From Paludibacteraceae bacterium (GTDB lineage Bacteria > Bacteroidota > Bacteroidia > Bacteroidales > Paludibacteraceae), in NCBI GenBank assembly GCA_024401555.1, contig JAKSKV010000012.1:18281-82280 (forward strand): a DNA stretch of 64,000 nt, read 5' to 3'. How positions within the stretch are numbered: position 1 is the stretch's first letter; the number at the start of each line of letters is the position of its first letter. A program made the translations under genes and the position numbers. Shown piece after piece: positions 45,972-55,902 of this stretch. The notes beneath the pieces are model-generated. The model was not told where the DNA came from. It searched no databases and was given only the letters and a program-made list of their open reading frames with translations.

Positions 45972-46214
45972 ATGGGTTTGACCAGTGGAATGATAATAAA
46001 TGAATCGGGTTATGTTTTTAACACGCTGACGGGTGAGAGTTTCTCCATCAATCAGACGGCTAAGACTGTACTATCTCTGTTGGAGCAGGGACGCTCCAAA
46101 TCGGAGATATATCAGCAACTGTTGGCCGAGTATGAAGTGGATGGCTCCTCCTTGGAGGCCGATTTGGACGATTTCTTTTATTTGCTGCGAAAATTTAGGA
46201 TGTTAGAGGGGTAA
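45972..46214 (+). CDS. PqqD-like protein (RiPP recognition element fold)
   Basis: The 80-residue protein matches the PqqD pattern: a beta-hairpin start (SGMIINESGYVFNTLTGESFSINQTA), a winged-helix body (KTVLSLLEQGRSKSEIYQQLLAEYEV) and an acidic helical end (LEADLDDFFYLLRKFRML). PqqD-type domains (RREs) bind the leader peptides of RiPP precursors and present them to modifying enzymes. Here no radical SAM enzyme or free precursor gene is visible; instead the gene is fused by a TAATG overlap to an ATP-grasp ligase and lies two genes before a decarboxylase with a YxxPxL N-terminus. I infer that it recruits that tail or an unseen peptide. Confidence 0.85.
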   Translation: MGLTSGMIINESGYVFNTLTGESFSINQTAKTVLSLLEQGRSKSEIYQQLLAEYEVDGSSLEADLDDFFYLLRKFRMLEG

Positions 46215-47254
46215 TGAAACAATTGGTGATAGCGATTAGCGGTATGAACGCTACGGACAATCCGGGTCCGGGCGTGGGGGTGGCGAGGAGCCTTCGGGAA
46301 TCGTCGCTTAGCGATCTGCGTATCATCGGTCTCTGCTACGGCTCTATGGAGTCGGGCGCCTATCTCAACGACATTGTTGACGCCTCCTACTTGTTGCCTT
46401 ATCCCAGCGAAGGGGTGCAACCCTTCTTGGAACGGTTGCTTTATATCCACGAGAAAGAGCATGTGGATATTGTTATTCCTAATTTAGACGCAGAACTTTT
46501 TACCTTCATAAAAATCAAGGATCGATTGGCTGAGGCGGGAATCCGTATGTGTTTACCCTCCCTGGAACAATTTGATATCCGACAGAAATCCCGGTTGCCC
46601 AAGTTTGGCGAGGCGGCGGGATTCCATGTGCCTAAATCCGTTATTTGTAACTCGGTGGAGGATCTGCTCTCCCCATTGAATGAGGTGGCCTATCCCGTGA
46701 TGATGAAGGGGAGCTTTTATGAGGCTTACTACGCCAATAATCCCGAACAGGCGATCTCCTACTTTTGGACATTGTTGGGAAAGTGGGGCGCTCCGGTCAT
46801 CTTGCAACAGTATGTGCGGGGCAGTGAGTTCAATGTGATCGGTGTGGGTGACGGCAAGGGAAATCTGCTATCTTGTGTGGCGATGCACAAGCAACTTATC
46901 ACGGATAAGGGAAAGGCTTGGGCGGGTGTTACCATTCAAGATCAAGCGTTGATTGACCAAGCGAACCGTTTTGTTGAGGCGACACAATGGATGGGTGCCT
47001 TTGAATTGGAACTGTTAAGGGGCGAAGACGGTGTGCTTTACCTCATCGAAATAAATCCTCGTATCCCTGCGTGGGTATATTTGGCGACTGCGGCGGGAGA
47101 GAACATTCCCGAACAAGTTGTCCGATTGGCTATGGGCGAGTCTCCTGCGCGTGTGGAGCGATATGAGGTCGGAAAGATGTTTATCCGATACTCTTGGGAT
47201 ATGATTGTCGACCAATCCCGTTTTGGACTATTTTCAGTGAAAGGAGAGATGTGA
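46214..47254 (+). CDS. ATP-grasp ligase (carbamoyl-phosphate-synthase/PylC-like)
   Basis: The 346-residue protein is an ATP-grasp enzyme: an N-terminal pre-ATP domain (LVIAISGMNATDNPGPGVGVARSL ... VDIVIPNLDAELF), the lysine segment YPVMMKGSFYEAYYANN (about residue 160), the QQYVRGSEFNVIGVGDG strand, and the metal-binding LIEINPRIPAWV (about residue 275). Such enzymes use ATP to activate a carboxylate and join it to an amine or thiol. The closest fold memory is CPSase large-subunit-like/PylC-like; substrate unknown. It overlaps the PqqD-like gene (TAATG) and is followed after 2 bases by the decarboxylase, so the three are translated as a block. Confidence 0.88.
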   Translation: MKQLVIAISGMNATDNPGPGVGVARSLRESSLSDLRIIGLCYGSMESGAYLNDIVDASYLLPYPSEGVQPFLERLLYIHEKEHVDIVIPNLDAELFTFIKIKDRLAEAGIRMCLPSLEQFDIRQKSRLPKFGEAAGFHVPKSVICNSVEDLLSPLNEVAYPVMMKGSFYEAYYANNPEQAISYFWTLLGKWGAPVILQQYVRGSEFNVIGVGDGKGNLLSCVAMHKQLITDKGKAWAGVTIQDQALIDQANRFVEATQWMGAFELELLRGEDGVLYLIEINPRIPAWVYLATAAGENIPEQVVRLAMGESPARVERYEVGKMFIRYSWDMIVDQSRFGLFSVKGEM

Positions 47255-47256
47255 TT

Positions 47257-48585
47257 ATGGAAAAGAAACGATATGAACGACCCCTTTTGAAGCGAATTGT
47301 ACCGACAATGCCGGGCAAGACGGGGCAGAATACCAACGCTGTGGCTCAAACCGAGATCGACGGTGTTCCATTGGAGGGGTTGCGGGAGCGTTTCGGCTCA
47401 CCGCTTTTTGTCTTTTCGGAGAGCCGTTTGCGAAAAAATATCAGGGAGGCGAAACAAGCCTTTTCAACCCGTTACCCCGAAGTGCGTTTCGCATGGTCGT
47501 ATAAGACCAATTACCTCAATTCGATATGCTCCTTGTTCCACGAGGAGGGCTCTTGGGCCGAGGTGGTTTCTGGCTTTGAGTATGATAAGGCAATCGAAAA
47601 CGGCGTTGCTTCCAATCGCATCATTTTCAATGGACCCTCGAAAAGCGAGGCTGACCTGTTGAAGGCGATGAGGGGGGATAGTTTGATCCATATAGATAAT
47701 ACGGAGGAACTACGACTGCTTACCAATTTGGCGGTTGCGGAGGGGATTCGTCCTCGTGTCGCGATCCGTGTCAATTTGGATGCGGGTATATATCCGGCTT
47801 GGAGCCGTTTCGGTTTTAATTTGGAATCTGGCCAGGCTTGGGACGCTTTGGAGAAGATTGCCTCTGAGAATCGGTTGTCGTGCGTGGGATTGCATTGCCA
47901 CATCGGCACCTTTATCCAGACGGTGAATGCCTATCGGGTGGAAACAGAGAAGATGGCTGCTCTTGCCTTGGACGCTATGACGAAATTGGGCTTGCCGATC
48001 TCCTATTTGGATTTGGGAGGCGGTTTCGCATCGAAGAACTCTTTGAAATCCTCCTATTTGACGGGGGAGGATCTATGCCCCTCTTTTGATGACTATGCGG
48101 AGGCGATCACCTCGGTGTTGAGGCGTGTGAAATTCCCTGGGGATAAAAAGATGGTTCTTGTCTTTGAGACAGGACGTGCGTTGGTGGACAATGCGGGTTT
48201 TTTGCTTTCGTCGGTGATTACCAACAAGCGTATGGCGGACGGAAGGCTCAACACGGTCATTGATGCGGGTGTGAATTTGCTTTTCACTTCGTTCTGGTAC
48301 AATCATAAGGTGACCACCACCTACGACAATGTGGCGCTGATGGAACCCACCACGCTCTGTGGCCCTCTCTGTATGAATATCGACGTGATTAGGGATAATG
48401 TCTTGTTGCCCCCTTTGAAACGAAATGATTTGGTGCTGATCCACTATGTTGGCGCTTACAATGTGACGCAGTGGATGCAGTTCATCACGATGCGTCCGAA
48501 GGTGGTGATGGTAAAGGAGAATGGTGAGGTGCATTTATTGCGCGATGCGGAGACTTTGGCGGATATTAATCGAATGGAACATTGA
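47257..48585 (+). CDS. PLP-dependent fold III decarboxylase (LysA/ODC-like) with leader-like N-terminus
   Basis: The 442-residue protein is related to diaminopimelate and ornithine decarboxylases: barrel start GSPLFVFSESRLRKNI, PLP lysine in AWSYKTNYLN (about residue 84), HCHIGTF, YLDLGGGFAS, VFETGRALVDNAG and CGPLCMNIDV. The second-domain Cys of GPxC is kept, but the substrate-binding residues after it (CES in LysA, CDS in ODC) are replaced by MNI, so the substrate is probably not diaminopimelate or ornithine. The first ~30 residues are extra: MEKKRYERPLLKRIVPTMPG contains YxxPxL, the hallmark of leader peptides bound by PqqD-type domains. ATG 47257 follows AAGGAGAG and the ligase stop. Confidence 0.85.
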   Translation: MEKKRYERPLLKRIVPTMPGKTGQNTNAVAQTEIDGVPLEGLRERFGSPLFVFSESRLRKNIREAKQAFSTRYPEVRFAWSYKTNYLNSICSLFHEEGSWAEVVSGFEYDKAIENGVASNRIIFNGPSKSEADLLKAMRGDSLIHIDNTEELRLLTNLAVAEGIRPRVAIRVNLDAGIYPAWSRFGFNLESGQAWDALEKIASENRLSCVGLHCHIGTFIQTVNAYRVETEKMAALALDAMTKLGLPISYLDLGGGFASKNSLKSSYLTGEDLCPSFDDYAEAITSVLRRVKFPGDKKMVLVFETGRALVDNAGFLLSSVITNKRMADGRLNTVIDAGVNLLFTSFWYNHKVTTTYDNVALMEPTTLCGPLCMNIDVIRDNVLLPPLKRNDLVLIHYVGAYNVTQWMQFITMRPKVVMVKENGEVHLLRDAETLADINRMEH

Positions 48586-50717
48586 TGGGCGATTGGGCGA
48601 AGATATGGTTACGGAGCATACGGAATAGTTATTCCTCGTTGGTCTTTTCCCGTGATACATGGTTGGGCGTCGCGATGCTCTGCGTGACCTTCCTCTATCC
48701 TCTTTCTGGCCTATGTGGCTTGCTTTGCGCAATAATGGTGAATGGAGCGGCGTCTCTTCTCTCATTGGATAAATTCAAAATGGAGAATGGCCTATATGGC
48801 TTTAATGCGGTGATTTTAGGCCTTGCCATGGGTGCGCTTTTCCCTCCTAACGCTATGCTCCTGTTTCTGTTGGTTGTCGCCTCTTTGATGCTCCTTTTGT
48901 GGATGGTGGGATGGGAGGCTCTCTTCGCCAAAAATCATCTTCCATACCTGGTGTTCCCCTTTTTGTTCACTTTGTGGATCTTGTTGCTGATGATGCAACA
49001 GCGAGAAGGTGCTTCCTTTGTTGATTGTGTCTTAGGCGACCATGTTGGTATTTTAGGTTGGGGGGATTTCTCTTTGTCATCTGTTTCCGACCATACGATT
49101 TGGCTCTCTTTGCCGGAGGTGGTAAGTGAATATTTTATCAGTTTGAGCAGTATTCTCTTTCTCCAAGATGTCTTTGTGGGGCTTGTGATGGCGGTTGTTT
49201 TATTATGCCATTCCCGTATCGCCTTTTTGTTCACTTGGATAACCCACATTGCCGCGTTCCTTCTTTTCAAAGGATTGGGATTGGATTCCTTCCATATCCC
49301 TTATGCCTGCTTCGGATTCAATTTCACCTTGGCGGCCTTGGCGTTGTCTTGTTACTTGGTTCCTTCGAAGCGAGCGATTCTCTATTCGTTATTGCTGATA
49401 CCCGTTCTGATGGTGATGGTTTTCGCCTCCACCAGAGGATTGGCCTATTTTAATTTGCCCGCTTTTTCCTCTGCTTTCTGTTGGGTGACCTTGCTCTTTT
49501 TGGTGGTGGCTCGGCAAGGAAACGGTCGTTATGTGCCCCGTTTGTCTTACCTTCTGGAGCGTACACCGGAGGAGAATCTCTATAACAACCAAACCAACGA
49601 GCGTCGCTTCCTTTGGTATCATTATCACCCATTCTCTTTGCCATTCTATGGCGAGTGGCGTGTCTCTCAAGGGGTGGATGGCGTCTATACGCACCAAGGG
49701 CTTTGGCGAGATGCGCTTGATTTTGTGATAGAGTTGGATGGATCCCAATACAAAGGTCGTGGGGATTCGTTGGGTGATTATTATTGCTATGGCAAACCGG
49801 TCTTGGCTGTTGCTGATGGTGAGGTGGTTTGTGTGGAGAATAGTGTGGAAGATAATCCTGTCGGTGTAAGTAATAAGAGAGAGAATTGGGGAAACTATGT
49901 GGTGATCAAACATTGGGATGGTTGTTATTCCTTGCTAGCGCATTTGAAAAGAGACTCTTTCATCTGTTCGGTGGGGCAGCGGGTGAAGCGGGGCGATGAG
50001 TTGGCGCTGTGCGGAAATTCAGGTCTCTCGCCTTATCCACACTTGCATTTCCAATTCCAAGCCTCTCCTGTGGTTGGGTCGCCCACCATACACTGTCCTT
50101 TTGTGAATTATCTGCGGAAAGAGGATACGATGGGGCATTTTGTGCCTTGCCGATTCCCTTTGGAGGGAGAAACGGTGAAAAACCTCTCTATCCGCATCCG
50201 CGGACGACACTATCAACTCTATGTCGGACAGACCTTGTCCGTCTCTTCCAATCGTTATGGTGAGGAGATTTGGTATGTCGGCGAGGCGTATGGTTATCGT
50301 TTCGTTGAAGATAGAAAGCGTGGTGCGAAGGCTTGGTTTGCCTTGAGCGAAGGTCTCTTTGAATTCCAACGTTATGAGGGATCTGAAGAGTGTGGCTTAT
50401 ACCATTTCTTCCTCTCCAACTACAAAGTTATTACGACGGATGAGGAGGCTTGGTCGTTGTCGGAGGAGATGTCCCCTGCAATCAGAAGAACTGGTTGGGT
50501 GGGTTATCTCTTGGATTTTATCGCACCATTCAAATCTTGTGTGAAGAGTGTTTTTTCTACTCAATGGAGTGCGAAGGAGTGTGTGATGGATGTTCAGATT
50601 GTCACCTCAATCGGGGGGCATGAGCATCGTGTTACAAAATATAGAACAACATTTGAAGGTGAGGAATCTCTTGTCGTGTCTGGTGGTTCGGATTTTTCCA
50701 TGCGGATTGCTTTTTGA
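48585..50717 (+). CDS. Fusion of a urea-transporter domain and an M23 peptidase domain
   Basis: The 710-residue protein opens with a ~300-residue membrane domain of the urea-transporter (UT) family: two homologous halves, each with the xxGFN signature (NGLYGFNAVILGLA, about residue 67; YACFGFNFTLAALALSCY, about 245) and ~10 hydrophobic segments. After a short linker comes an M23 zinc endopeptidase domain (about 350-510) with HQGLWRDALDF (His and Asp ligands), LLAHLKRDS and the HLHFQ pair; the ligands appear intact. A further ~200-residue beta-rich C-terminal part follows. M23 enzymes cut peptidoglycan or similar peptides. ATG 48585 overlaps the decarboxylase stop (TGATG). Confidence 0.85.
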   Translation: MGDWAKIWLRSIRNSYSSLVFSRDTWLGVAMLCVTFLYPLSGLCGLLCAIMVNGAASLLSLDKFKMENGLYGFNAVILGLAMGALFPPNAMLLFLLVVASLMLLLWMVGWEALFAKNHLPYLVFPFLFTLWILLLMMQQREGASFVDCVLGDHVGILGWGDFSLSSVSDHTIWLSLPEVVSEYFISLSSILFLQDVFVGLVMAVVLLCHSRIAFLFTWITHIAAFLLFKGLGLDSFHIPYACFGFNFTLAALALSCYLVPSKRAILYSLLLIPVLMVMVFASTRGLAYFNLPAFSSAFCWVTLLFLVVARQGNGRYVPRLSYLLERTPEENLYNNQTNERRFLWYHYHPFSLPFYGEWRVSQGVDGVYTHQGLWRDALDFVIELDGSQYKGRGDSLGDYYCYGKPVLAVADGEVVCVENSVEDNPVGVSNKRENWGNYVVIKHWDGCYSLLAHLKRDSFICSVGQRVKRGDELALCGNSGLSPYPHLHFQFQASPVVGSPTIHCPFVNYLRKEDTMGHFVPCRFPLEGETVKNLSIRIRGRHYQLYVGQTLSVSSNRYGEEIWYVGEAYGYRFVEDRKRGAKAWFALSEGLFEFQRYEGSEECGLYHFFLSNYKVITTDEEAWSLSEEMSPAIRRTGWVGYLLDFIAPFKSCVKSVFSTQWSAKECVMDVQIVTSIGGHEHRVTKYRTTFEGEESLVVSGGSDFSMRIAF

Positions 50718-50722
50718 CGAGG

Positions 50723-50753
50723 TTGGTCATCTCCTCACTTTTTTTTATTTTTG
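50723..50753 (+). promoter_or_regulatory. Possible internal promoter before the barrel gene
   Basis: -33 TTGG (50723-50726) and -7 TATTTTTG (50746-50753), 20 bases apart; lies over the end of the UT/M23 gene. The start would be only a few bases before the ATG at 50767. Confidence 0.5.
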
Positions 50754-50766
50754 CATAGATAATGCC

Positions 50767-52263
50767 ATGAAAAAGAACTTTGTCCATATCGTGTTGTTGG
50801 TCGTATCGTTCGCCCTTTCGGTGAATGTATGGGGACAATATTGCTTGGATGCGACGGATGGACGTTATGCGAAGTTTGTCTCCGATCGTGGTATAGGTAT
50901 CTCTCTTTATGAGAAGGGGCGTTTTCTCGACGCTGTTCCCTATTTGGAGTCGGCGCATGAACTCTGTCCGACGGATTCTGTTCTGTGCGAGTATCTCTAT
51001 TTCTCTTACAAAAACACATTGCGGAATATGGATGCGAACAGCATCTTCAGTTCCGTTCCCGCCGCTTCCGTCGCCGCCTATGGACTCAAAAGTCATCGGC
51101 CAGTATCCTCTATATATGCGGAGGGAGGAGCCCTTTTTGCTGATAATAAAACATATTGGGATGATTCGTACATTTACTTCGAAAGATATGTGGTTGGAAA
51201 TGGTGGTTTCGCATCTGTGGATCTCTCCAATGAAATAGGGGCGTTCTGTGAATTGTCGCATCATATTGGAGTGACTACCCGAACCAATCCTGTTGAGATG
51301 AAGAGTTCCAATAACACCTACTTCAATCTTCGGTCGAAATATGTGGGCTTTGAGTATGAGGTGAATGCCCAGATTAATCTCTCCTCTCGATGGAAGGTTA
51401 CTCCTTTCGCGAGGGTGGGTGTGGAGACTTACGATTTGATCTCCTTCTCTTTGGATACGGTGGTGAAGAGTGCGAAAGAGGCCAGCGACTGGGGGAGTCT
51501 CAATGAGTGGGATTGGAATAAACCTGCTCCTGAGGGATGGAGCGATCCAAACACTCCGTCGTGGAACAATCAGCCCTGGGGCGGCTATCCAATGTGGCCG
51601 GGTATGTACTATCCCTATCCATTCAATCCCAACTGGGGCAATGTGGATTATCCAACCTATGGTCCAGATTTTTGGACTCATTTAAACCAAATTTCTTATT
51701 CGTACTCCCATAAATCGGAACGTCAAAGCCGATGGGACATAATGGTGGGATGCAGTCTCGCCTACACTTATGGCAAACATGTCGCTAATGCCGATTTTTC
51801 CTATTTTCATGGGGAAAACCTACATGTTTGGCAGGCGGGGCTGTCGTATAAAATCCATCCCATGGGAAATGTGAATCTATACTTGCTACCGAGGATTTCC
51901 TATATTTGCCGAAGGGGTGGTCCCCAGTATGAGAAATTGCCGGGAAGTTTCTTGGCGGAGATTGTATGTGGCGGTAAGATCTATAAAAATTTATGGGGTA
52001 GCGCCTCTTTCCTTTATGGCAACGTCTGTGATTATCACGATAGAGATAGCCATATCTTTTATTCCCTATCTTGCGAAACAAAATTAAGATCATCCGCACA
52101 GTTGATCTATTTGCTGAACAATCATTTGAGTCTTATTCTTACTTACAAATATGTCCGAAAAAAATCGAACTTTTTCTCGGTGGATAAGGATGGTTATTCC
52201 GAATTGAAGCCTTATGGACAAAACGATAATGTGATAGCGGGAGGTGTGCAATGGAATTTTTAG
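50767..52263 (+). CDS. Outer-membrane barrel protein with N-terminal TPR-like part
   Basis: The 498-residue protein starts at ATG 50767 with a signal peptide (MKKNFVHIVLLVVSFALSVNVWGQ). Residues ~30-105 look TPR-like (GISLYEKGRFLDAVPYLESAHELCP). From ~115 on, alternating strands with aromatic edges (YFERYVVGNGGFASVDLS, SYIYFERY, FEYEVNAQINLSSRWKVTPFARVGVETY ... NDNVIAGGVQWNF) and a final Phe mark a barrel that takes the BAM route. Residues ~245-303 are an unusual Trp/Pro/Asn/Tyr-rich loop. It follows the UT/M23 gene and overlaps the next gene by 13 bases, so it belongs to the same locus and could export or sense its product. Confidence 0.78.
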   Translation: MKKNFVHIVLLVVSFALSVNVWGQYCLDATDGRYAKFVSDRGIGISLYEKGRFLDAVPYLESAHELCPTDSVLCEYLYFSYKNTLRNMDANSIFSSVPAASVAAYGLKSHRPVSSIYAEGGALFADNKTYWDDSYIYFERYVVGNGGFASVDLSNEIGAFCELSHHIGVTTRTNPVEMKSSNNTYFNLRSKYVGFEYEVNAQINLSSRWKVTPFARVGVETYDLISFSLDTVVKSAKEASDWGSLNEWDWNKPAPEGWSDPNTPSWNNQPWGGYPMWPGMYYPYPFNPNWGNVDYPTYGPDFWTHLNQISYSYSHKSERQSRWDIMVGCSLAYTYGKHVANADFSYFHGENLHVWQAGLSYKIHPMGNVNLYLLPRISYICRRGGPQYEKLPGSFLAEIVCGGKIYKNLWGSASFLYGNVCDYHDRDSHIFYSLSCETKLRSSAQLIYLLNNHLSLILTYKYVRKKSNFFSVDKDGYSELKPYGQNDNVIAGGVQWNF

Positions 52264-52886
52264 GAAGTCAAAAGAAATATGTGATAACACTGCTTGTCGG
52301 ACTCTTTGTCTCGCTTGGCGCAATGACGGTTTGTGCGGAGCCTAACCACAGCGCTCTCTTTGCGAAAAGTTACGAATATGAGGCGAATAAACAGTATGAT
52401 GAGGCCATCGAGGTCTTGAAGCAGGTGAAGGCTGATATTTATGCGGTGAATCTGCGTTTGGGATGGCTCTATTATCTGAAGGGAAATTATAAGATCTCTT
52501 TGATCTATTACGCAAAGGCGATTCAGTTGAGGCCCACTTCCATAGAACCTCGCTTCGGTTATGTGTTGCCTGCTGCGAAGATGAAGGATTGGGTAAAGGT
52601 CGGCAAACAGTACGATGCGATTCTTAAACTGGATCCTAATAATACCAAGGCCAATTACTACCGAGGCTTGATGTTCTTCAATGTAGGGGATTATGCCAAG
52701 GCCGAACCCTATTTTGACAGGGTGGAGGCGCTTTATCCGTTCGATTATGATATTGTGATCCTTTCCGCATGGAACGCCTATTACAAAAAGGATTTCGCCA
52801 AGGCGAGGTCTTTTTTTAACCAAGCGCTCCTGATCCAGCCTAACAGTGCTTCCGCTGCGGAGGGAATCGGTTTGCTGAAAAGATGA
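52251..52886 (+). CDS. Periplasmic TPR protein
   Basis: The 211-residue protein has an N-terminal signal segment (YVITLLVGLFVSLGAMTVCA, residues ~10-29) and about four TPR units (KSYEYEANKQYDEAIEVLKQ; LGWLYYLKGNYKISLIYYAKAIQL; QYDAILKLDPNNTKANYYRGLMFFNVGDYAKAEPYF; NAYYKKDFAKARSFFNQALL). TPRs build scaffolds for protein contacts. It overlaps the barrel gene by 13 bases and probably works with its periplasmic TPR part. Last gene of the operon; a strong hairpin follows. Confidence 0.85.
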   Translation: MEFLGSQKKYVITLLVGLFVSLGAMTVCAEPNHSALFAKSYEYEANKQYDEAIEVLKQVKADIYAVNLRLGWLYYLKGNYKISLIYYAKAIQLRPTSIEPRFGYVLPAAKMKDWVKVGKQYDAILKLDPNNTKANYYRGLMFFNVGDYAKAEPYFDRVEALYPFDYDIVILSAWNAYYKKDFAKARSFFNQALLIQPNSASAAEGIGLLKR

Positions 52887-52919
52887 TGACTATGAATCGG
52901 TACGAAGAATAAAAATTAA

Positions 52920-52954
52920 AAGGGGGAATCAAAAGCGTGTTTTGATTCCCCCTT
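52920..52954. terminator. Strong hairpin between the PqqD operon and the GH98 gene
   Basis: A 15-bp perfect stem (52920-52934 with 52940-52954, AAGGGGGAATC core). T-rich on the minus strand side, so it best terminates the GH98 gene; it may also stop the convergent operon. Confidence 0.75.
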
Positions 52955-53007
52955 CCCATTGGGGTGCTCTGTTGAGAATTTTTGCTTTAGCGCATATACC
53001 GCAAGGA

Positions 53008-55902
53008 TTATCGTCTTATTGCCTTCTTAACTGATCCATCCTTCATTCGGACAATGTGGACGCCACGGTAATCTTCTTTTATTGATTCTCCTTTAATGCT
53101 GTAACGACCTTCCTCTTCCGGCGTTTGCGCCTTGACCAGCGGAAGACCTGTTGTCTCCAATTCGCCATAAATGGCCTCTATGTTTGTGAGTGTGAAGAAA
53201 TACTTATCTTCCGAATCTTCTGGTATGGCCGTGTTGAGACGGATTTGACCAAAGGTGCATCCTGGATATTGGGTGATGAACTGCGATAGCAATTCGTGGA
53301 GATTGTAGGTCTTGGACAATATAGGTTCCGACGAGGAGGTTCCCGACGCCGCGGATCCGATATACCAGTCGTTATTCACCTTTTTACCCTCCGCATCAAA
53401 GATTTCAAAATCCAGACGATATCCGGTAGTGCTCTCTTCCCCACATTCAATAAGCAAGCCTCCGACATCTTCGACCTTTTTGCCCTTTAGTATATCGGAT
53501 GGGAAATAGGCCCACGTCGTTGTCTTGAAGTAGTGGCGATCGCCGACCGCTTCCGCATTACCCATTCCGTTTAGGGCGATATAGAAAGGAGAGAAGGTTA
53601 CATTGTCAACATACATATCCACTCCGCCGGTATTGGTAAGCGTGAATGTGTTTTCACCCTCTTTGACGCTCGCTTTGTAGGTGGCGTATTTCCATTCCGT
53701 ACCTGTGTTTACAACATCAAGCTTCACATCTACCGCATCTCCAAACGATGAGGTGATGGAACCTTCTCCTTTGGACATGTATTTGATGCGCACTTCATAC
53801 ATGCTTGTTTTGCTGATAGCGCCCGACCAACGGAGTGCGGCCGCTTTGTTGGTTCCCATCATCTGGAATCCCATGGCGGAATGGCCTCTTATGCTTCGTA
53901 GTTGACCTCCGTTCCAGTTGTATTGGTGTGTGACACATGATGCGACATTTTTGTAATCCATGTCCTCGGCCTCGATGATAAGATCGGTCGCGTAGTTAGC
54001 CGGTTGTTTGATGGATGAGGCCTCAAGAGCGGTCGAAGGAAGGTAATCTGTCGAACGGTTCGCTTCGCTTCCTGCGCAGGCGATAGTCAAGTCGCAAGGA
54101 CCGCAGTGAGAGATCGTACAGGTATAGACACCGCCATTCCATGATTCCGTCAAAGTCGCTTTGGCCGATGAGTTGGATGCCTGTCGGCGTTCGGTCAATG
54201 TCGCTTTCGGCTGAGACTTCGCTCCGTAGATGGTGATGACATCAGACTTTACTGAAGTGTCGTCCGTACGGTAGTTGTTGAAGTAGCAGACCATTTGATC
54301 TTTATACTCGTTTATGATGGCGCTGCTGTATTGGGCGAACTTCAAGTCAATCTTCTGGCAAGTGTTGTACTGCAAAGGAACAGTGGCGGAAGCTGTGGTC
54401 TTGCTGTTCATGAACGAGTATGGAAAATAGCATACGAGCGCATTCTTGTTGCGTGCCACAAATAGGTCTCCGGTGCTGACCTCTGGGTAGTTGGCGTTAA
54501 AGAATTGAACTTTTGCGCTTTGGTTCGCCCAAGCTGTTTTATTGTTGATGGCAGAACGTTTGATCTGATTAGGGATCTTCTTTGCCACATTGTCATAAAG
54601 GTCGATGACGATAGGAATGGACTGGTATCGGCCCGTTTTCTTGAAATAGAGGTAGTTGTTGTTGCCGTAACCATTTATCGTGCCGATTCCGCCTTCCGAG
54701 CTTGTGCGGCCATTAGCAGGATCGTCTTGTAGATAAAGTCCATGATAGAGGTCGATAGGTGCGGCGTATGCGTTTACCTTCAAACTTGTGGCGTCTTGAT
54801 TTGCGCTTATATCGTTGATGATACAAATCTTAGTACGTCCGATGACCTCCTCGCGACTTGGGATGTAGATGGTTCCATCTATGACTTTACGCCACATATC
54901 GACCCAAATATTGTCGAAGTTAGCGAATGTTGTCCAATTGCGTCGTGTATATCCGTCGGCAGTTTTGGATGCGCTGAGATTTCTGAAATCTTCTGTCCAG
55001 ATGAGCTCTGGTCCGTCCCATACGCAAGCACCGTTGAGTGCCATTTGTTCGAGGACGGGAGCGACACCGACAGCCCCTGGATAGGATTGGCCTTTGTATG
55101 CTTCGTTAGACTTGGCGAATTCGTCAATCATTCCGTTCCATCCGCAGTTGTCGTAGCGAACGCCGTAGTTCTTGGCCAAGCCTGAAATAAATGGTGCCAA
55201 CGTGACTGATTCATTGTTGAACCAGTTGGCGGAGGTGGTGTACTTATAGAGGAATAGCACCGCTTCCGGAGCCGCTTTGCAGGCGTTGAGGAAATCAGCG
55301 TTCCTTTTCATCATTCCAATTGGGTTCACTGGGTGAGACCAGATGTTTCCGCAGAAAGAAATGGTGAGGAATCCTCCGTATTTTTGATGCATTGGGACAA
55401 GGCGTGCGAAGAACTTGATTCGGTCTGTATCTGTGCTCGAACTTGCGTCATTGTATTCTCCAAATCCCCAGAACTGCTCGGCGTAGTTCCAACCTAAAAA
55501 GTTTTTGTAATCCTTAAAGAATGACTCCATGATAGCAAACGACTCGTCTGCGTGAAAGGCGTCGTCTTGCAAATGGGTGTGACCTCCTGAGGCGGGTTGG
55601 CAGGTAAACCATAAGTTGTTTTTGCAGCAGACCGATGCCCAAGAACGGTAGGTCTGTATGGCATTTTGAGGCATCTTGTAGATTTTCAAATCCTTGTCAT
55701 ACTGGCAAGAGAGCGAGAGATTCATGCAGACGTATGGCTTGATATCCTCTGGTACAAGATCGATGATCTTTTGAGGATCAGCTTCATTCCATACATCGAC
55801 GTGGATCATCCACATAGGGTGCCGATTGTCGATCGGACGTCTGGACTGTGCGAACGTTGTCATACACAACATCAGCATTAATAATGTAATTACCTTTTTC
55901 AT
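53008..55902 (-). CDS. Glycoside hydrolase family 98 protein with carbohydrate-binding domain
   Basis: The 964-residue protein has a signal peptide (MKKVITLLMLMLCMTTFAQS) and the GH98 catalytic domain (about residues 25-330): PMWMIHVDVWNEADPQKIIDLVPEDIKPY, QPASGGHTHL and the acidic residues in GWNYAEQFWGF (about 142), VRYDNCGWNG and GPELIWTEDF that match the GH98 active site. GH98 members include blood-group-antigen endo-galactosidases and endo-xylanases; which applies is not clear. Residues ~330-560 fit the GH98 C-terminal beta domain; ~640-780 is a carbohydrate-binding module (LIIEAEDMDY start). The end (GRYSIKGESIKED...SVKKAIRR) resembles a degenerate type A sorting tail. ATG 55902 gives a clean signal peptide. 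Confidence 0.85.
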   Translation of the reverse strand: MKKVITLLMLMLCMTTFAQSRRPIDNRHPMWMIHVDVWNEADPQKIIDLVPEDIKPYVCMNLSLSCQYDKDLKIYKMPQNAIQTYRSWASVCCKNNLWFTCQPASGGHTHLQDDAFHADESFAIMESFFKDYKNFLGWNYAEQFWGFGEYNDASSSTDTDRIKFFARLVPMHQKYGGFLTISFCGNIWSHPVNPIGMMKRNADFLNACKAAPEAVLFLYKYTTSANWFNNESVTLAPFISGLAKNYGVRYDNCGWNGMIDEFAKSNEAYKGQSYPGAVGVAPVLEQMALNGACVWDGPELIWTEDFRNLSASKTADGYTRRNWTTFANFDNIWVDMWRKVIDGTIYIPSREEVIGRTKICIINDISANQDATSLKVNAYAAPIDLYHGLYLQDDPANGRTSSEGGIGTINGYGNNNYLYFKKTGRYQSIPIVIDLYDNVAKKIPNQIKRSAINNKTAWANQSAKVQFFNANYPEVSTGDLFVARNKNALVCYFPYSFMNSKTTASATVPLQYNTCQKIDLKFAQYSSAIINEYKDQMVCYFNNYRTDDTSVKSDVITIYGAKSQPKATLTERRQASNSSAKATLTESWNGGVYTCTISHCGPCDLTIACAGSEANRSTDYLPSTALEASSIKQPANYATDLIIEAEDMDYKNVASCVTHQYNWNGGQLRSIRGHSAMGFQMMGTNKAAALRWSGAISKTSMYEVRIKYMSKGEGSITSSFGDAVDVKLDVVNTGTEWKYATYKASVKEGENTFTLTNTGGVDMYVDNVTFSPFYIALNGMGNAEAVGDRHYFKTTTWAYFPSDILKGKKVEDVGGLLIECGEESTTGYRLDFEIFDAEGKKVNNDWYIGSAASGTSSSEPILSKTYNLHELLSQFITQYPGCTFGQIRLNTAIPEDSEDKYFFTLTNIEAIYGELETTGLPLVKAQTPEEEGRYSIKGESIKEDYRGVHIVRMKDGSVKKAIRR

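Follow-up and report, generated by a model that had tools for sequence, protein, structure and literature searches.

According to the available text of PMC13381572, the discrete recognition elements (RREs) of lasso systems, one class of ribosomally synthesised and post-translationally modified peptide (RiPP), recognise the motif [Y/W]xxPx[L/V/I/F/A]; a YxxP leader motif is also given in the part seen of PMC12710340. The RRE-Finder paper, in its accessible text (PMC7470986), interprets discrete lasso-type RREs that occur without lasso machinery as false positives, as relatives that bind DNA or as members of RiPP classes yet unknown. Among pyridoxal 5'-phosphate (PLP) enzymes, the available text of PMC7857480 describes a FigC clade of enzymes that decarboxylate conjugated amino acids, citryl conjugates among them, together with diaminopimelate (DAP) and D-ornithine decarboxylases, and places SbnH, AcsE, MccE and BtrK in the clade of FslC and FigC. 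Here we describe an operon of a Paludibacteraceae bacterium, at 45972-52886 of a 64,000-nucleotide stretch of contig JAKSKV010000012.1 (the window), that encodes a lasso-type RRE protein together with an ATP-grasp ligase and a PLP decarboxylase whose own N-terminus resembles a leader. The conserved leader-type tag on the operon's own decarboxylase, as read from the alignments, is a new observation. A literature search, with subscription papers mostly outside its range, found no account of the operon or of an enzyme-borne leader tag with a stand-alone RRE, and no such system was found in the accessible text of a survey of Bacteroidales RiPPs (PMC10352776).

The operon consists of six open reading frames (ORFs), all on the + strand. 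The sequence-only reading had described six coupled genes, and the letters and ORF translations agree with it at every coordinate and junction: in order TAATG, a 2-base gap, TGATG, a 49-base gap and a 13-base overlap, with the ligase gene overlapping the RRE gene. Its first three genes (the trio) and the sites within them are:

45972..46214, + strand: P0001, PqqD-like discrete RRE protein, 80 aa (PF05402 E 2.4e-11; profile best match TbiB1/TfuB1)
46161..46163, + strand: Asp64 codon of the RRE; the position contacts leader Tyr/Trp in solved RRE complexes (mapped via PbaB1 9x90 Q79)
46214..47254, + strand: P0002, ATP-grasp ligase, carbamoyl-phosphate-synthase-like group (Pfam, NCBIfam, PDB match 2pn1)
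47257..48585, + strand: P0003, fold-III PLP decarboxylase (Orn_Arg_deC_N E 4.8e-32)
47257..47358, + strand: leader-like N-terminal tag of the decarboxylase, 34 codons (alignment; tag profile)
47272..47274, + strand: tag Tyr6 codon, partner of RRE position 64 (co-variation)

A leader-like tag on the decarboxylase and its probable RRE partner

P0001 matched the Pfam family PF05402 with 44.2 bits (cut-off 23.4) and scored under the cut-offs of the NCBIfam lasso and pyrroloquinoline quinone (PQQ) chaperone models. When a PqqD profile of 28 sequences was compared with the PDB, matches were obtained to TbiB1 (5v1u/5v1v, E 1.5e-12) and TfuB1 (6jx3, E 1.9e-8); these two and PbaB1, all solved with leaders, matched the profile better than the PqqD of PQQ biosynthesis. 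A search with the single P0001 sequence gave repeat-driven WD40 matches beside TbiB1. Residues that contact the leader are kept in the RRE: N27 and Y/F54 in 176/176 sequences, F68 in 165 and L72 in 168 of the 176. By sequence, the nearest relatives of P0001 are the RREs that bind lasso leaders, in agreement with the RRE type proposed for it earlier.

In an alignment of 33 decarboxylases an N-terminal segment precedes the PLP domain, in which P9, K21 and G23 are invariant and Y6, E7, R8 and G17 nearly so, giving the pattern [Y/F]ERPxI...KxG. All 112 decarboxylase N-termini inspected contain [YF]xxPx[IL], and the tag fits the lasso motif [Y/W]xxPx[LVIFA], with Phe replacing Tyr in a minority. 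The window decarboxylase starts MEKKRYERPLL, compared with MEKKKYTAPQL at the start of the TfuA leader in its solved complex with the RRE. A phmmer search of the PDB with the tag peptide gave no match, so the comparison with leaders rests on the motif and on inspection by eye. Searched with a tag profile, 23/23 operon genomes gave a single strong match each (E 2e-23 to 9e-13), in every case at the start of the decarboxylase; the window genome (G000) likewise had one match. Across 27 genomes the profile found no second strong tag-like sequence (next best E 0.06), and four genomes among them that have the UT-M23 gene described below but not the trio gave no match below E 0.29. The RRE had been expected to present a leader peptide: the RRE type stands, but the only sequence with a matching leader in the 27 genomes is the decarboxylase, at its N-terminus. 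The most divergent tagged decarboxylase (L271:5087-6430; YTKPVL...NKFA) has Ala in place of Gly23; no RRE ORF was called at this locus, which is outside the pair counts below.

Position 64 of the RRE aligns with PbaB1 Q79, which hydrogen-bonds a leader Trp, and LppB D70 bonds a leader Tyr, as reported in the accessible text of PMC13381572. The PbaB1 mapping was checked by the twelve contact letters named in that paper, which agree with the chain at one offset; for LppB, the correspondence to position 64 is drawn from the D70-F74 spacing and from matches of equal length. Position 6 of the tag and position 64 of the RRE varied together. In the first 111 pairs, tag Tyr occurred with Asp or Asn in 85/85 and tag Phe with Tyr, Ser or Phe in 26/26; in the full set of 175 loci with the tag residue, Tyr occurred with Asp or Asn in 146/146 and Phe with Tyr, Ser, Phe or His in 29/29. 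Additional genomes of the class added no further Phe case. Of 35,360 column pairs, this one came first by background-corrected and by entropy-normalised mutual information, and 929th by the raw measure. Outside the class, 23 loci were fetched after the rule had been seen; all three genes were called in 19 of these (18 genomes), and 19/19 obeyed it (16 Tyr-Asp, 2 Phe-Tyr, 1 Phe-His). The two traits were followed on one quick tree of 171 unique loci, built from the ligase independently of RRE and decarboxylase: each trait switched five times, and all five switches were joint. A model of dependent evolution was preferred over independent evolution (likelihood ratio 41.7, p 1.9e-8; 40.6 on 153 loci).

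The predicted chemistry of the two enzymes was assessed from family and PDB matches. P0002 matched ATPgrasp_Ter (Pfam, E 1e-10), fell under the cut-offs of the PRK12767 models, and had PDB matches of the carbamoyl-phosphate-synthase-like group (2pn1, E 2.8e-14; also 1a9x); 67 columns are invariant across 27 ligase sequences. The best PDB match of P0003 was the N-citrylornithine decarboxylase 7kh2 (E 8.7e-60), against E 2.7e-43 for the best DAP decarboxylase, and its loop has Cys-Met as in N-citrylornithine decarboxylase, in contrast to the Cys-Glu of the DAP decarboxylase shown. CMNID is invariant in 33/33 decarboxylases. Plain membership of LysA or FslC was rejected, both NCBIfam scores being under their cut-offs (LysA 223 bits against 297.9; FslC 229 against 500). 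The body of the enzyme is strongly conserved across the 33 sequences, with the expected PLP lysine and Cys-x3-Asp motifs, and therefore looks like a working decarboxylase. An ATP-grasp enzyme and a fold-III PLP decarboxylase, as originally called, are thus borne out by Pfam and PDB matches.

The predicted envelope genes and conservation of the operon

The remaining genes appear to form an envelope module, and a hairpin lies behind them:

48585..50717, + strand: P0004, fusion of a urea-transporter (UT)-type channel and an M23 peptidase (UT E 1.3e-39, M23 E 4e-16; relatives in class survey)
48612..49511, + strand: UT channel domain, residues 10-309 (PF03253 E 1.3e-39)
49638..50114, + strand: M23 peptidase region, approximately residues 352-510, limits set by us (Pfam match 402-492; PF01551 E 4e-16)
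50767..52263, + strand: P0005, exported-looking, probable outer-membrane barrel with N-terminal tetratricopeptide repeats (TPRs) (hydrophobic N-terminus, final Phe; relatives match TPR families)
52251..52886, + strand: P0006, exported-looking TPR protein (TPR_2 E 1e-21)
52918..52956, no strand assigned: strong hairpin between the operon end and a convergent gene at 53008 (hairpin scan)

The hairpin was scored on the - strand, and the hairpin scan overall was near the shuffle mean. Both domains of P0004 lie in one protein, which scored 79 bits against the cut-off of 274.6 of the narrower NCBIfam model TIGR03441. In 32 UT-M23 relatives, residues were compared at the glutamate, LPxxT threonine and glutamine positions, which we take to have the pore roles seen in solved urea channels. 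The glutamate position holds Ala, Ser, Gly or Tyr in 32/32; the first LPxxT threonine is kept in 2/32 (Ser in 27/32, Val in the window protein) and the second, in a motif placed by eye, in 9/32; the first-repeat glutamine is kept in 24/32 relatives and not in the window protein. The urea or carbamoyl product raised as a possibility by the sequence-only reading is not supported, since most urea-channel residues are lost and the glutamate is kept in 0/32. The M23 residues H370, D379, H453, H486 and H488 are invariant in 32/32; the zinc ligands His, Asp and the His of HxH (H370, D379, H486, H488) were assigned by eye, and the H-D spacing is longer than usual. With these zinc residues kept throughout, an active wall or peptide hydrolase is plausible. 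P0005 has no significant Pfam family; scans of 22 members of its gene family gave mostly TPRs, with other families once each and weakly, and no convincing barrel family. It may be an outer-membrane barrel, judging from its ends. Of the families named earlier, PqqD, ATP-grasp, PLP, UT/M23 and TPR were all recovered and the barrel lacked a significant Pfam match; the proposed envelope module, with its UT and M23 fusion and exported-looking P0005 and P0006, is consistent with these predictions.

A ligase-profile search of named genomes gave at least 583 relatives, of which the best 80 were kept, so that the set leans towards close relatives. Hosts named among these 80 include Bacteroidales metagenome-assembled genomes (MAGs), Algoriphagus, Cyclobacterium, Mucilaginibacter and others, and the nearest relatives of the window are rumen Paludibacteraceae MAGs (ligase 74% identical). 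Gene order, for the genes present, was the same in 80/80 loci. Where there was room, PqqD was directly upstream of the ligase in 76/76 loci, the PLP gene was found in 76/76 and UT-M23 in 67/68, and all six genes were present in 53/59 loci with at least 6.5 kb downstream. The six exceptions lacked the barrel and/or TPR gene (four), lacked UT-M23, barrel and TPR (one), or had PqqD at the contig start (one); recognisable barrel and TPR genes were missing in the relatives L074, L075, L168 and L169. The order is conserved far above chance, and the operon is old and conserved, as one coupled unit of the kind first proposed. The ligase was found in 15/16 genomes of the window's genus, the window's own counted (G405 gave no match at E <= 1e-50), and in 27/296 genomes of a phylum sample, 22 of them outside the class.

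The class was surveyed from the other end by searching the proteins of 395 Bacteroidia genomes for the UT-M23 fusion, presence being set at E <= 1e-50; 83 genomes were positive. Forty places were read from the UT-M23 side and one (L068) proved to be an M23 match only, leaving 39 neighbourhoods: the adjacent trio was present in 33, cut by contig ends in two and missing in four. Single-sequence searches of viral and genome contigs with the UT-M23 protein gave no matches.

Several variations were seen around the operon. An IF-2B family gene lies between the decarboxylase and UT-M23 genes at L115:12423-13340, with similar-looking ORFs in L122, L139, L140 and L145; in L094:12618-13187, L097:12549-13124, L117 and L121 the gap holds an ORF that by eye resembles an extracytoplasmic function (ECF) sigma factor. 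A general extra gene in this gap was rejected, the wider gaps being either empty or occupied by the IF-2B family gene, a sigma-like ORF or some other gene. Upstream of the operon, an ORF of about 280 aa occurs in several out-of-class loci, and the ORF at L261:318-1157 has a type IX secretion sorting domain. Identical RRE and tag sequences near both ends of one contig (C1 of G503; L269, L270) probably reflect a circular chromosome whose overlapping ends were left uncollapsed.

Eight of the ten UT-M23 genomes without the trio ligase have another ATP-grasp protein, PRK06524 (above the cut-off in L158). In the loci read, this substitute adjoins a 913-aa Orn/Lys/Arg-type decarboxylase and usually a 145-aa protein as well. 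PF01276 matched the decarboxylase in L158 (E 4.1e-78) and L163 (E 1.9e-77); elsewhere it was recognised by BLAST to L158 (L204, L205, L206) or by length and first letters (L059, L161, L162). The substitute genes stand divergently beside UT-M23 in six of the eight (G041, G100, G115, G314, G374 and G168, the last with a UT fragment); only the 145-aa gene was seen there in G220, and contigs end between the two in G164. Of the other two UT-only genomes, G307 has a contig break inside the PLP gene and G209 is a 68% complete genome. Over the 395 genomes, the substitute ligase occurred in 31 and in 0/76 trio genomes (p 0.0015). The 319 non-trio genomes divide into 8 with both UT-M23 and the substitute, 2 with UT-M23 alone, 23 with the substitute alone and 286 with neither; the eight come from three families and so represent few independent events. 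The substitute module supports, short of proof, a scheme in which a ligase plus an amino-acid decarboxylase feeds UT-M23.

In the loci read that lack UT-M23, the neighbours of the substitute are genes for an aminotransferase, a carbon-nitrogen hydrolase and an AAT-like protein, joined in places by one for an aldehyde dehydrogenase. At L195:2850-10520, and similarly in L196, L198 and L200, an operon encodes the aminotransferase, the hydrolase, the Orn/Lys/Arg-type decarboxylase, the PRK06524-like ATP-grasp protein and the AAT-like protein (Pfam families checked in L195 and L198); in L198 an aldehyde dehydrogenase adjoins it. From its gene content this stand-alone operon looks like one for degradation of amines or basic amino acids with an amide intermediate.

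Proposed pathway and alternatives

The operon is probably a leader-docked small-molecule pathway, in which the RRE docks the tagged decarboxylase by the ligase and an amide product passes to the envelope module. Docking of the tag by the RRE is well supported by sequence: conservation and co-variation strongly suggest that the client of the RRE is an enzyme, whose tag would be gripped in the groove where lasso RREs bind precursor leaders. Docking would most likely hold the decarboxylase beside the ATP-grasp ligase. The ligase would couple an amino acid with a carboxylate, after which the conjugate would lose its alpha-carboxylate to the decarboxylase, as in rhizoferrin synthesis by FslA/FigC; this order is proposed because of the affinity of the decarboxylase to FslC/FigC, and by that analogy ligation first and decarboxylation second is the simplest reading. 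The product would be an amide of a decarboxylated amino acid, probably a diamine amide. In the weakest step of the scheme, it would pass to the UT-type channel of the inner membrane, which has a periplasmic M23 domain, and to the exported TPR and TPR-barrel proteins, for export or envelope modification.

Several observations weigh against this pathway. The co-variation rests on only five evolutionary switches on one quick tree; three independent pairs lie on well-supported branches, with which significance is unreachable (sign test p 0.25), and an earlier count gave two (p 0.5). The chemistry is based on family affinity under curated cut-offs. Over all 395 genomes the substitute and UT-M23 are not associated (8 both, 75 and 23 alone, p 0.49): their association holds only among non-trio genomes, 23/31 substitute genomes lack UT-M23, and there the substitute sits in what looks like an amine catabolism-type operon. 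The trio is on another contig from UT-M23, in a different gene context, in G026 and G151, and in L114 the trio is not followed by UT-M23.

The last of these bear on the reading that the envelope genes are a separate urea-uptake or wall-remodelling unit which merely shares the operon with the trio. We consider this unlikely. UT-M23 does persist without the trio in some genomes and is unlinked in at least two; in G042 a ligase fragment on a separate contig is perhaps a third such case. The genes, which might have scattered in related genomes, are mostly together, apart from G026, G151 and perhaps G042. Against separate units, UT-M23 and ligase co-occur in the 395 genomes (both 73, UT-M23 alone 10, ligase alone 3, neither 309; Fisher p 2e-64, a value that overstates independence since the genomes are related), spacing is mostly tight and most urea-channel residues are lost. 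As for the three ligase-only genomes, UT fragments were seen at the ends of contigs in G261 and G268, and the ligase contig of G098 is 3.5 kb.

Two further readings give the tag a chemical role, and both are improbable. The tag may be handle and carrier at once: the RRE would present Lys21-x-Gly23, the ATP-grasp enzyme would load an amino acid on the lysine, the same chain would decarboxylate it and the product would exit via the envelope module. If true, the enzyme would be its own carrier, taking the place of an acyl carrier protein, and would define a new class of leader-guided assembly of small molecules across Bacteroidota. Alternatively, the decarboxylase is a fused RiPP precursor, with the tag as leader, the following segment as core for the ATP-grasp enzyme, and the body carried along or self-acting, borosin-like. 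RREs normally serve precursors, and K21 and G23 are kept in 175/175 loci, stricter than docking alone seems to need. Yet the enzyme body is conserved with its PLP lysine and Cys-x3-Asp motifs, no recurrent protease gene was seen within the trio, and the segment past the motif is not highly variable, unlike many cores.

It is very unlikely that the tag serves as a structural arm at the N-terminus, such as a dimer contact, with co-variation from shared ancestry. Co-inherited genes do give background co-variation, and switches are few, but the pair of tag 6 and RRE 64 ranks first after background correction, corresponds to a contact in solved complexes and held in every complete out-of-class locus. 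In addition, alignments to the 48 solved relatives listed all start at decarboxylase residue 27 or later, which makes the arm look like an add-on. An ordinary RiPP RRE serving an unlinked precursor, the tag resemblance being incidental, has the least to recommend it: some RiPP precursors are encoded away from their enzymes, and a different leader would escape the tag profile as well as a gap inspection that listed ORFs of at least 50 aa, but no second strong tag-like sequence was found in the 27 genomes, no recurrent ORF of that size in the wider gaps of 80 loci, and RRE 64 co-varies with the decarboxylase tag. An ordinary RiPP cluster was rejected on the same searches, no precursor with a matching leader having been found.

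Comparison with known systems

On the docking interpretation, the operon would answer the RRE-Finder puzzle for one widespread group, the client being an enzyme wearing a leader, and leader-RRE recognition would, if this is true, be a docking device outside RiPPs. The two-residue rule (tag 6, RRE 64) is directly open to binding tests. In many environmental Bacteroidota, the locus also points to a conserved metabolite pathway, apparently undescribed, that includes a fused channel-peptidase.

The discrete lasso RREs TbiB1, TfuB1/FusB1 and PbaB1 and the LPP RRE LppB share with P0001 the family, the leader-contact residues and the YxxP/WxxP recognition motif; in those systems the leader is on a precursor peptide, whereas here it is on the decarboxylase. 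An asparagine-synthetase-like cyclase and a B2 protease had no match among the six operon proteins (unlinked copies were not sought). The bacterial urea channel 3me1/3k3f and the M23 endopeptidases share the UT family and the M23 residues with P0004, in which the two domains are fused and the channel glutamate is lost.

The N-citrylornithine decarboxylases FslC and FigC are the closest characterised enzymes, by hidden Markov model score and PDB match, with the loop Cys-Met and an amide-forming ligase partner in common. That partner is an NRPS-independent siderophore (NIS) synthetase in their case and an ATP-grasp enzyme here, where the leader tag is added. Butirosin biosynthesis pairs the ATP-grasp enzyme BtrJ with the PLP decarboxylase BtrK, a ligase and a clade-related decarboxylase acting on a tethered amino acid; there the carrier is an acyl carrier protein, in place of the RRE and enzyme-borne tag found here. 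In borosins, precursor and enzyme are in one chain and the fused peptide is the substrate. Borosins and the tagged decarboxylase both have a leader-type sequence and an enzyme in one polypeptide; the tag of the decarboxylase would probably act as a docking handle.

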